Below, piece by piece: positions 1 through 56,402 of a stretch of 64,000 nucleotides of DNA. Position numbers and translations under genes: made by a program. The stretch spans positions 1-64,000 of the forward strand of contig JAUNWI010000010.1 of the NCBI GenBank assembly GCA_030540395.1. Reading direction: 5' to 3'. Each line of letters begins with the position of its first letter. The stretch's first letter is position 1. This stretch comes from Phascolarctobacterium sp. Its GTDB lineage: Bacteria > Bacillota > Negativicutes > Acidaminococcales > Acidaminococcaceae. The notes below the pieces were generated by a model, which ran no database searches, was not told the DNA's origin, and worked only from the letters and a program-made list of their open reading frames with translations.

Positions 1-500
1 TGTTCTCTGCAATATCAGTTACTGCGCGGAATGACAGCTCCCCCCTAGGGGAGCCATTCCTACTACCGTAGATTGAGAAGAGAGCCTCCACCACCGGGGG
101 AGGTGGCAGTCGCGCAGTAACTTTCGCTAGGACGTCTCGTGAAATGCGACTGACGGAGAGGGGATACTGCAAAACCCCAAAGGAACTGCACACCCCTCTC
201 AGTCATCCGCATTTACTGTTCTCTACAATATCAGTTACTGCGCGGTATGACAGCTCCCCCCTAGGGGAGCCATTCCTGCTACCGTAGATTGAGAAGAGAG
301 CCTCCACCACCGGGGGAGGTGGCAGTCGCGCAGTAACTTTCGCTAGGACGTCTCGTGAAATGCGACTGACGGAGAGGGGATACTGCAAAACCCCAAAGGA
401 ACTGCACACCCCTCTCAGTCATCCGCATTTACTATATTCTGCAATATCAGTTAATGCGCGGAATGACAGCTCCCCCCTAGGGGAGCCATTCCTACTACCT
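1..500. repeat. Tandem array of 216-bp repeats (family A palindromic element)
   Basis: A 216-bp unit is repeated in direct orientation with very few differences: the same ten-base string occurs at 9, 225 and 441. Two full copies are visible (about 81-277 and 297-493); position 1 starts inside the right half of another, so the array extends beyond the window. Each unit has an outer arm rich in CCTCC/GGGGGAGG, a central hairpin (GCGACTGACGGAGAGGGG pairing with CCCCTCTCAGTCATCCGC) and a right arm that is itself a palindrome (CTCCCCCCTAGGGGAG). The same unit is dispersed elsewhere in the window. A further GC-rich hairpin at 511-530 follows. I see no gene in 1-565; short frames here are repeat translations. 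Confidence 0.9.
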
Positions 501-17945: not shown

Positions 17946-18550
17946 GGGAAAGCCTCCCCTTGGGGGGAGGTGTCAGTCGCGCAATATAGGTCGCTCGTAC
18001 TCATCTTGAAATGCGACTGACGGAGAGGGGATACTCCAAACATACTATTTATTGCTATTATTTAAACTCAATGCATACTTTTCTATCTCTTCACAAACAG
18101 CAGAAAAATAACAATCAATGTAGTTATTAGGAAATCTCATCACCTTCAAACCAAATTTTTCTAAATAAGCAGTTCTTTCTTTGTCATAGGCAGCAGACTT
18201 CTCATCGTAATGTTGACTACCATCTAATTCTATACACAGCTTAAGGCTATCACAGTAAAAATCAACTATATAATGGCCTATTGCTTTTTGTCGATACCAT
18301 TTTTCTTGTCTTTGCTTTAAAAAGTCATACCATAAGTGACGTTCTTGTCTCGTCATTGTTTGACGAAGCTTTTGAGCTCTTTTTATAATCTTTTCGTTGG
18401 TAAAATTATTGTACATCAAATCGCTTCCTTGATAGCATTTATACAATTCTTCTTGGATTAAGGCTCGGCGTCACCCCTCTCAGCCGCATCTTGGCTAGAT
18501 TAATAGCTAATATTCGGAGGCGGCAGCTCCCCCCTAGGGGAGCCTTTCCT
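17946..18550. mobile_element. Family A palindromic element carrying a DUF559 nuclease gene
   Basis: The left part (17946-18032) matches the left half of family A: palindromic CCTCCCCTTGGGGGGAGG, then GTCGCGC, and GCGACTGACGGAGAGGGGAT. The right part (about 18468-18550) matches the right half: CCCCTCTCAGCCGCAT, then GGCGGCAGCTCCCCCCTAGG. In the gene-less copy at 25877-26060 the two halves are joined by a loop of about 25 bases; here that loop holds the nuclease gene. The immediate outer flanks are also partly inverted (GCGTAGGGAAAG against GCGATAGGAAAG). I infer an element with long inverted ends whose cargo is DUF559. Confidence 0.7.
18045..18416 (-). CDS. DUF559 endonuclease-like protein
   Basis: A 123-residue protein of the DUF559 family, related to very-short-patch-repair (Vsr) and other PD-(D/E)xK endonucleases. 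Candidate active-site residues are D52 (IVDFYC), E63 and D65 (IELDGSQHYD); the N-terminal part (RAQKLRQTMTRQERHLWYDF) is also family-typical. Start ATG 18416 has AAGGA upstream; the frame is open 10 codons further. The gene fills the central loop of a family A palindromic element and is AT-rich relative to its neighbours, which suggests it travels with the element. The cleavage substrate is unknown. Confidence 0.85.
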   Translation of the reverse strand: MYNNFTNEKIIKRAQKLRQTMTRQERHLWYDFLKQRQEKWYRQKAIGHYIVDFYCDSLKLCIELDGSQHYDEKSAAYDKERTAYLEKFGLKVMRFPNNYIDCYFSAVCEEIEKYALSLNNSNK

Positions 18551-18609: not shown

Positions 18610-18870
18610 ATGAAATTGAGTAATAAGTAAGCAGCAGGTGAGCTGTGATTTTTAGCAAATGAGTGGTTGGAACAATAGAAGCAAGCGTTTCGAAAAACTA
18701 TAGCTTTCCTCGAACAGATTGGACACCGCAGCTTCGTGATTGTTCCCCACGAAATTTGCGTTATCCCCAATGGGACAGCTCCCTGCACAAATTCTGCTGC
18801 GTGCGAGGCACTTGCACAATTTGGCGACTCGCTTGAGAAAATCACCGCGAGCATGATGCTTACTTATTAC
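18610..18870 (-). repeat. Family B repeat, long copy, encoding a Cys4 peptide
   Basis: Matches 56231-56402 except for an in-frame extra segment of about 70 bp. Constant inner ends are GTGATTTT and AAAATCAC; outside them lie arms GTAATAAGTAAGCA and TGCTTACTTATTAC, a perfect 14-bp inversion. On the minus strand a frame from ATG 18854 to 18579 (91 codons) contains ISWGTITKLRCPICS and NACFYCSNHSFAKNHSS, a C-x2-C-x10-C-x2-C pattern. There is no ribosome site, so translation is unproven. The gap 18447-19068 holds the right end of the DUF559 element, this repeat and a family C repeat, and no other gene. Confidence 0.65.
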
Positions 18871-18979: not shown

Positions 18980-19080
18980 AAGATGAGCTAGAAGGTATTA
19001 GATACGAGGAACGGCGACGACGGCGTATAAATAATACTCCTAGGAGCCGTGACGAAGCAGATGATGCCTTATAGCTCATC
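18980..19080. repeat. Family C palindromic repeat at the end of the hydroxylase gene
   Basis: The unit runs GAAGGTATTAGAT...GACGACGGCGTA...GACGAAGCAGATGATGCCTTAT and matches 33222-33329. Its outer arms AAGATGAGCTA and TAGCTCATCTT are perfectly inverted, and the right arm includes the last codons and stop of the molybdenum hydroxylase gene (19069). It could serve as that gene's 3' hairpin. Confidence 0.75.
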
Positions 19081-25876: not shown

Positions 25877-26060
25877 AGAGCCTCCCCTTGGGGGGAGGTG
25901 GCAGTCGCGCGGTATACTTGGCTCGGACTGCTTTTTGAATGCGACTGACGAAGAGGGGATACTGCAAACCCCGAAGAATCTACAATCCCCTCTCAGCCGC
26001 ATTTTGGCTAGAATATAGCTAAGGTTCGGAGGCGGCAGCTCCCCCCTAGGGGAGCCTTTC
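25877..26060. repeat. Family A palindromic element, intact gene-less copy
   Basis: About 185 bp. The outer arms, GCCTCCCCTTGGGGGGAGG and CTCCCCCCTAGGGGAGCC, are inverted copies of each other and each is also a palindrome. The central stem AATGCGACTGACGAAGAGGGG pairs with CCCCTCTCAGCCGCATT around a loop of about 28 bases, the position that holds a nuclease gene at 18045-18416. It fills the gap 25780-26131 between xdhC and yqeB, together with a family B fragment; no gene is present there. Confidence 0.85.
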
Positions 26061-32786: not shown

Positions 32787-32870
32787 ACCCCTCTCAGTCA
32801 TCCGCATTTACTAAACTATGCAATATCAGTTACTGCGCGGAATGACAGCTCCCCCCTAGGGGAGCCTCTC
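32787..32870. repeat. Family A element, right half only
   Basis: CCCCTCTCAGTCATCCGCAT, then AATATCAGTTACTGCGCGG and the palindrome CTCCCCCCTAGGGGAG. It is nearly identical to the right half of the array units at 1-500; the left half is absent. It lies between rarA and the 6S RNA gene. Confidence 0.8.
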
Positions 32871-32892
32871 CAAAAACTTTTACTTACAAGAT

Positions 32893-33076
32893 AAAACCCC
32901 ACAATGCCGTCCTAACGCCCCATGTTTTGAACCTGCATGTGCAGGTGGGTGCCTTCTCTCCAATCGCAAAAGTCCACTCAAAGGAGGCTGGTTTTTAAAA
33001 GGAGAAGTATCAGGCTCCCTAGGTTAGAGTGTTGGCTCAAAACCTGTGGAGCAACGTAACGAACATCGCAGGGATT
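32893..33076 (-). ncRNA. ssrS: 6S RNA (RNA polymerase regulator)
   Basis: About 184 nt. The 5' end CCCTGCGATG pairs throughout (with G-U pairs) with the 3' end CATTGTGGGG. Inside the 5' arm, GATGTTCGTTACGTTGCTCC then GGTTTTGAGCC mimic the conserved 5' half of 6S RNA; the 3' arm has CATGTTTTGAACC-like and GACGGCAT segments. The long rod with a central bubble is the 6S form that binds sigma-70 RNA polymerase. It lies between aspS and rarA, where Bacillus bsrA lies. The rest of 32744-33328 holds repeats and the aspS terminator. Confidence 0.8.
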
Positions 33077-33173
33077 TTTACAATTATGTACGTGGCTAAG
33101 CTTAGAAAAAGTCAGCCTTTGTCGTCTTCTTCCGACATACATATAATACCAAAAAGCTGTATTTTTTTCAAGT

Positions 33174-33221: not shown

Positions 33222-33329
33222 CCTAAAATCGTTCAGAAGGTATTAGATGCGAGGCGCACCGACGACGGCGTACTAGAGGTACGTCTAGGAGGTGCAACGA
33301 AGCAGATGACGCCTTATGGACGATTTGCT
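33222..33329. repeat. Family C palindromic repeat after aspS
   Basis: Matches 18980-19080 internally (GAAGGTATTAGATGCGAGG; GACGACGGCGTA; AACGAAGCAGATGACGCC). Its outer arms, AAATCGTTCA and TGGACGATTT, pair with one G-T, but differ from those of the other copy. Its right arm ends exactly at the aspS stop codon. Confidence 0.8.
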
Positions 33330-50407: not shown

Positions 50408-50556
50408 AAGGCTCCCCTTAAAAGGGGAGCTGGCGCCGCAGGCGACTGAGGGGTTAATTTTGCGCTCAAACCCCTCCGCCTCGCAAGCTCGGCACCTCCC
50501 CTTTAAAGGGGAGGCAAGCTATATCATGCGGTCCCCCTCCCCTTACAAGGGAGGCT
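50408..50556. repeat. Family A-like palindromic element, divergent subtype
   Basis: Same plan as family A but different bases: outer palindromes GGCTCCCCTTAAAAGGGGAG and ACCTCCCCTTTAAAGGGGAG, then a central stem with GACTGAGGGGTT pairing with AACCCCTCCGCC. A further CCTCCCCTTACAAGGGAGG hairpin follows. It fills the pnp-dut gap and may also serve as the pnp 3' hairpin. Confidence 0.75.
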
Positions 50557-56194: not shown

Positions 56195-56230
56195 AATATA
56201 CACTTCCCCTTCTATCATAGTTGTACTTAG

Positions 56231-56402
56231 TTATATGGTAACAGTTTGGGAGCTGTGATTTTTAGCAAATGAGTGGTTGGTACAATAGAAGCAAGCGTTT
56301 CGAAAACCTAAAGCTTTCTGCGAACAGATTGGACACCGAAGCTTCGTGATTGTACCCCACGAAATTTGCGTTAAGAAAATCACTGCGAGCAAACTGTTAC
56401 CT
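56231..56402 (-). repeat. Family B repeat, short copy, encoding a Cys4 peptide
   Basis: Matches 18610-18870 without its extra segment. Constant inner ends are GTGATTTT and AAAATCAC; the outer arms GGTAACAGTTTG and CAAACTGTTACC form a perfect 12-bp inversion different from the other copy. On the minus strand a frame from TTG 56392 to TAA 56231 contains TQISWGTITKLRCPICS and NACFYCTNHSFAKNHSS. Relative to the other copy several changes are synonymous. There is no ribosome site. It lies between larB and larC. Confidence 0.7.

Follow-up and report, generated by a model that had tools for sequence, protein, structure and literature searches.

A DUF559 nuclease gene between folded inverted ends: a probable very small autonomous mobile element with MITE-like derivatives

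Several described systems resemble, in part, the repeats and nuclease gene reported here. In the REP/REPIN-RAYT system (TnpAREP, HUH Y1; PMC6006769, PMC3116915), short structured repeats, often in inverted pairs, are present as many gene-less copies per genome together with few enzyme genes, each flanked by its own repeat family in a family-specific pairing, and the DUF559 system is alike in all of these respects. The DUF559 system, however, has an unrelated PD-(D/E)XK nuclease, and its ends combine a mirror plan (a strand S, its complement S' and a mirror copy) with AAGCC/GGCTT outer limits, whereas RAYT repeats have GTAG hairpins. CGTC-tagged REPs, defined by CGTC, a stem of 8-9 bp, a loop of 4-5 nt and a CCA tail, are reported to have no transposase gene linked to them (Di Nocera et al., 2013; PMC3733652). 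Inverted dimers predominate among them, as they do here, and the type-1 linker described below (CCGTCA-stem-loop-stem-TGCCA) comes near to their formula of CGTC, stem and CCA tail, but the linker hairpin here lies between C-rich and G-rich strands and is linked to DUF559. Such CCGTCA..TGCCA linkers were located near 22 of 74 DUF559 genes, in a comparison that covered the set from named genomes.

Intrastrand triplex motifs (TM_ECO/BoxC-type, ITxF; Holder et al., 2015; PMC4666352) share with the present ends the succession of a C-rich strand, its complement and a mirror G-rich strand, and the published motif resembles the type-4 ends (GGGAGAGGG-TTAG-GGTGAGGG) that lie beside DUF559 genes, including ycjD of E. 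coli. No mobility gene was found near the TM_ECO motif and DUF559 is not mentioned (PMC4666352); unlike the ends of the locus studied here, whose hairpin linkers of about 50 nt fall outside the range, the loops searched were of 1-6 nt only. The CGTC-tagged REPs and the triplex motifs are thus partial counterparts of the linkers and ends reported here. EDxHD/Vsr-like homing endonucleases (I-Bth0305I, PDB 3r3p) belong to the same fold family as DUF559, but the DUF559 gene lies outside any intron or intein and is flanked by repeats that are found gene-less at non-homologous sites. The gene-less units are like MITEs in having both ends in common with a gene-bearing unit, and unlike them in that no target-site duplication was seen and no DDE transposase is present here. 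Open-access articles mentioning DUF559 contain, by title and abstract, nothing on repeats or mobility (subscription literature lay outside the search), and PMC12907096 concerns a Vsr-like protein.

The nuclease gene, its ends and their gene-less relatives

The window, that is, the whole stretch of 64,000 nucleotides analysed (C14:1-64000), belongs to a genome of 22 contigs (G000, hereafter the own genome). Its DUF559 gene sits between two inward-facing structured ends in a cassette that spans about 17949 to 18547 (Table 1), and the original prediction, which placed the gene between two halves of one repeat family, was right in this. Where the prediction spoke of a palindromic element, the paired inverted halves hold good but the simple palindrome does not, each half being composed of a hairpin, a linker and a mirror G-rich strand; the placement of the gene in the central loop, also predicted, applies to the window but not to some genomes, such as G088, where the gene lies between two units.

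Table 1. Features of the window and linker types recurring among DUF559-associated ends.
Feature	Coordinates	Strand	Description
Tandem array of gene-less units	1..500	+	216-nt period, 99 percent identical; at contig start
Left end	17949..18030	+	order: outer AAAGCC, hairpin CCTCCCC..GGGGAGG, linker TGTCAGTCGC..GCGACTGAC, inner G-rich strand GAGAGGGG
DUF559 single-domain PD-(D/E)XK (Vsr-like) nuclease gene	18045..18446	-	PF04480 E=9e-31, AlphaFold2, Foldseek
Right end	18474..18547	+	order: inner CCCCTCTC, linker hairpin CAGCCGCAT..GGCGGCAG, hairpin CTCCCC..GGGGAG, outer GCCTTT
Intact gene-less unit	25877..26060	+	left and right ends of the window cassette around a short central loop
Solitary right-type half	32787..32870	+	beside 6S RNA gene (32892-33077, minus strand)
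Second-subtype gene-less unit	50410..50524	+	R-type end, ~24-nt loop, L-type end; closer to Clostridia ends
Linker GGTGGC-hairpin-GACGG			window L-end, Clostridia, Novosphingobium
Linker GGGGACC-hairpin-GGTGG(T/A)GGG			G088, G092, G106, Sphingomonas, Sphingobium
Linker GGTGG(C/G)-hairpin-TCGGATGAGG			Clostridia, Shinella
Linker TTAG/CTAG			E. coli ycjD, Azospirillum, Photobacterium, cyanobacteria

In each half, a C-rich strand S and its complement S' make a hairpin; a linker follows, often itself a hairpin, and then a G-rich strand S'' mirroring S'. The sequence of S varies by lineage while the plan is constant. In the left end of the window, GAGAGGGG is a near mirror of the G strand in the hairpin, and the architecture is that of Clostridia and Novosphingobium ends, while in the right end CTCCCC..GGGGAG..GAGGGG supplies the C-rich stem, its complement and the mirror third strand. 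Judged by base sequence, S can pair with S' with S'' lying alongside as a third strand, in a putative intrastrand triplex-type fold. Four linker types recur across the loci examined, and those of the window, about 50 nt long, contain a hairpin of their own. At their left ends, L128 and L134, two cassettes that are homologous elsewhere, differ in that one has a type-1 linker where the other has a type-2 linker, and linkers are therefore swappable as modules.

The product of the window gene, 133 aa from TTG 18446 (ATG 18416 being a possible alternative start), scores 106 bits against PF04480 (cut-off 20.6). The closest Foldseek matches to its AlphaFold2 model (pLDDT 88.9) were the DUF559 protein NGO0050 (3hrl) and the homing endonuclease I-Bth0305I (3r3p, E=3.8e-5), with Vsr (1vsr) further down, and a profile search returned I-Bth0305I (E=3.7e-5) and PvuRts1I (0.004). 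An alignment of 61 sequences keeps T32, E35, Q53, D62, E73, D75, H79, D88, R91, and R104, with D62, E73, D75, and H79 invariant throughout. The known kinship of DUF559 with PD-(D/E)xK/Vsr endonucleases is borne out here, both in the fold and in the conserved active-site acids. The dN/dS of DUF559 is approximately 0.04-0.14, with dS near saturation, and the gene has therefore apparently been kept functional.

The intact gene-less unit of the window is 93 percent identical to the window cassette over the right half and 84 percent over the left, and its fold in single-stranded form has an energy of -41.9 kcal/mol (z = -4.1; 0/200 shuffles as good). This gene-less copy, predicted at the same place, does have both halves contiguous, and the predicted tandem array, half copy and divergent unit are likewise real, the last of them being complete in itself, with an end of each type and no gene. 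In the own genome, 19 matches to the unit were recovered on 6 contigs, which is probably an undercount because the start of C14 falls within an array of such units. Each of the DUF559 genes of this genome (3/3) abuts such ends: a second (C11:23836-24153) lies between halves, placed as in the window, and before the third (C15:177421) stands a palindrome built on the same plan from another sequence (CCTCCCTC..GAGGGAGG TGG-hairpin-GACGGAGGGAG). Within the genus sample, units and DUF559 were both present in G000 and G005, neither was present in G001-G004, and units only were present in G006, a genome that is 84 percent complete.

Other short repeats accompany these units. A second repeat family, about 145-250 nt long with inverted arms of its own, is present in the window at 18619-18763 and 56229-56373 (89 percent identical) and also at L008 and L273, and in G006 a comparable stretch precedes moaA. 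An 83-nt repeat (AGAAGGTATTAGATRCGAGG...) has two copies in the window, 78 percent identical, at 18990-19072 and 33235-33317. In the tip of a CTCCCC..GGGGAG hairpin, an element of about 70 nt (GACGCAAAGACCCACGTTGTCACAAGCGCAGCGCAGTGAGAACGTGTTGGTCGTGCTAATACCC) is inserted (L005 ~803-877, L014 ~1559, L020 ~1188, L002 ~1400; own genome), and copies without it show an empty hairpin tip. Unrelated small palindromes are nested in the hairpin tips or linkers of ends at L029 (upstream flank) and L081 (downstream flank), an arrangement which suggests that elements enlarge by inserting into one another. A search of Rfam families in the window returned 6S RNA and the lysine riboswitch only.

Association with ends and dispersal as bounded units

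DUF559 genes are associated with such ends well beyond the genus. Flank inverted repeats were detected at 26/42 DUF559 genes of the class sample compared with 4/64 control genes (p=5e-10), and at 27/74 compared with 4/617 in named genomes (p=1e-24), a set of 74 DUF559 genes that are mostly from Clostridia. A search independent of the particular sequence, which looked for a C-rich strand S, its complement S' and a mirror S'' within 400 nt of the gene, was positive at 58 of the 74 genes versus 39 of 526 controls (p=1e-39), and substituting a direct for the mirror copy as third strand reduced the former count to only 35/74. Type-specific patterns, which were written after reading part of the sample, occurred on both flanks at 16/74 DUF559 genes and 0/526 controls. 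Among the genes with a detected end, the closest end is oriented towards the gene, its S'' on the inner side, in 44/49 cases upstream and 50/67 downstream. In the Negativicutes-type subset, a stringent detector registered 15/47 genes versus 3/69 controls and therefore misses several families in which inverted repeats are plain by eye. A clear pair of ends was not found at a minority of DUF559 genes (e.g., L035/L063), for which the strictness of the detectors is part of the reason. The original prediction would have been undermined by DUF559 genes lying mostly outside palindromes, or by halves that never form an intact gene-less unit at other loci; in relatives and in other phyla the gene usually lies between such ends, and intact gene-less units do exist elsewhere.

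Copies lacking the gene can be much more numerous than the gene itself. In the DUF559-bearing contigs, totaling 1.0 Mb, 23 inward pairs enclose a gene and 26 do not, more than half of the 26 being trivial overlaps, and clean gene-less versions of the cassette type are present at L134 2725-2854 and L135 19254-19353. Across the class, type-2 ends number 105 in G088, 57 in G106, 43 in G137, 39 in G092, and 25 in G064, with a reversed-pattern control near zero. The 105 halves of G088 stand against 2 DUF559 genes; its units are inverted pairs about 100-250 nt apart, and one gene lies between two units, outside the central loop. A strong DUF559 match was obtained in 8/10 genomes with type-2 ends versus 12/140 others (p=9e-7) and in 5/10 genomes with type-1 ends (p=0.004). 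In G079 and G103 (type-2 units) and in G012 and G031 (type-1 units) DUF559 was not detected, which may reflect either gene loss or mobilization by something else. The 1.3 Mb genome G064 has eight DUF559 genes, a local cluster of repeated copies at G123:C1:2293811-2315962 includes two broken by stops, and in cyanobacterial plasmids DUF559 genes lie inside DUF499/DUF1156 or BREX PglX-type clusters (L264, L265; also L263, L266).

When the DUF559 loci were all aligned with one another, 11 cassettes, each 443-453 bp long, were identified at 11 unrelated loci, with homology that stops at the outer AAGCC...GGGAGCC. The alignments of 17 locus pairs end at both outer limits (452-458 bp), and similarity across unrelated loci is about 70-90 percent identity. 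Within 6 kb of the 11 cassettes there is no shared neighborhood except for two weak protein matches of 24-32 percent identity (none above 33 percent), nor is there an obvious target-site duplication at any of the 11. In the compact cassettes, the stop codon falls inside the right end, and no gene-only cassette with bounded homology was seen at a non-palindromic site. These 11 cassettes show one bounded unit recurring at non-homologous loci, as transposable elements do. The autonomous behavior that had been predicted is supported to this extent, with the nuclease as the probable mover.

The ends also track the lineage of the nuclease. On a maximum-likelihood tree of 100 DUF559 proteins, the eight stem classes require 33 changes compared with 65.4 when shuffled (0/200 as low), bearing in mind that near-copies and shared ancestry inflate tests of end-class clustering. 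In the own genome, two nuclease lineages correspond to two end classes, and the class of the window is common to the related nuclease of G005.

Sister genomes offer partial views of sites with and without a unit. Two sister cyanobacterial plasmids differ by one gene-less unit of about 105 nt. In the relative G004, a few bases separate the xdh stop from the moaA start, an interval that in the window measures 1.2 kb and contains the cassette and other repeats; the G004 site is empty with no nucleotide-precise joint, and the contig of G005 ends in moaA. The Azospirillum chromids have no cleanly gene-less sister, and at the pntAA-pntAB locus of Sphingomonas the gene-less homologues are all distant. 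No strain-level empty site for a gene-bearing cassette was found at the moaA locus of the genus or in Azospirillum, Sphingomonas, or E. coli. Many of the source genomes are fragmented metagenome assemblies that are prone to break at repeats. In E. coli, a query of ycjD and its neighbors was at least 80 percent covered in 3362/5426 genomes. Lineages without ycjD were rejected as empty sites, an RND operon being at the locus in the lineages read; in strain 536 this operon replaces ycjD in a locus that is otherwise sapF-ycjD-fabI (L290; genomes without the gene, L288 and L289). Most strains have 14-29 copies of the triplex motif, O157:H7 has 13, and certain B2-like strains have 1-5; the relation of copy number to the presence of ycjD is suggestive and is confounded by phylogeny.

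Proposed mechanism and competing explanations

We consider it probable (about 0.68) that 17949-18547 represents a single copy of an autonomous mobile element of very small size, made up of a Vsr-like PD-(D/E)XK nuclease and folded inverted ends, with MITE-like derivatives. In the mechanism that we propose, the C-rich strand of each end could pair with either of two G-rich strands, giving a hairpin or an intrastrand triplex-type fold, and the ends would become single-stranded or extruded during replication, transcription or conjugation. DUF559, as the presumed catalyst, would recognize the folded ends of its own lineage and nick or cut there, and the unit might then be copied elsewhere by host replication or repair. 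Gene-less copies with both ends would owe their movement to the enzyme acting in trans, as MITEs or REPINs do, and solitary halves would be decay products.

The main rival is homing, in which older palindromes move by other means and DUF559 cuts gene-less units at their center, to be copied in by repair through the homology of the halves. The closest folds, which include I-Bth0305I and Vsr, are in keeping with it, as is the dyad position of the gene, in units whose gene-less versions are uninterrupted (25877-26060; L135 19254-19353), and the linker exchange between L128 and L134 is what conversion would do. We nevertheless regard homing as unlikely: cassette homology ends at the outer limits at 11 unrelated loci, which indicates that gene and ends travel together, the end class tracks the nuclease lineage, and homing by itself does not account for how the units spread. 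A preference of some otherwise unknown element for inserting the DUF559 gene into palindromes, as tolerant or fragile sites, would agree with the entry of other short elements into hairpin tips here, but is improbable given that ends and gene share a lineage and move as one unit.

Movement of REP-like palindromes by a RAYT or another transposase, with DUF559 as a passenger, is still less probable. The REP-type tag GTGG is present in the linkers, and Y1 transposases are common in the class (96/150 genomes), but PF01797 (Y1/RAYT) profile matches were lacking in G000, G064, G088, and G115, and so from the own genome, for which a RAYT mover was rejected, and from G064 and G088 despite their many copies; moreover, between the ends read there is no transposase other than DUF559. 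The REP/RAYT-like character originally predicted therefore stands for how the system works, but not for its enzyme, there being no Y1/RAYT in the own genome, nor for its ends, which depart from the GTAG REP plan. That the ends are ordinary terminators insulating a small horizontally acquired gene, their likeness elsewhere stemming from G+C-richness, is scarcely credible. They are intergenic and able to fold, as terminators would be, but the structure is mostly missing at control genes of the same contigs, and the 70-90 percent identity at unrelated loci, together with an outer boundary that is conserved and linkers that are conserved across phyla, is not what such a reading entails; the bounded homology largely refutes it.

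If the mobile-element reading is extended to the family, DUF559 would represent an unrecognized, ancient class of mobile elements in Bacillota, Pseudomonadota, Cyanobacteriota, and Deinococcota, in which one nuclease on its own, about 120 residues long, mobilizes triplex or double-hairpin ends, and would be the missing enzyme of CGTC-tagged REPs and TM_ECO/BoxC-type motifs (in E. coli via ycjD). We offer this extension tentatively, at somewhat short of even odds. Short structured repeats are among the commonest bacterial repeats, and both of these groups were published without a mobility gene (PMC3733652, PMC4666352); a pairing of gene and repeat that recurs across phyla provides a candidate enzyme for them and a candidate function for a widespread domain of unknown function. 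If true, an enzyme class known from repair, restriction and homing would alone provide mobility to an autonomous element that ranks among the smallest (~450-600 bp).
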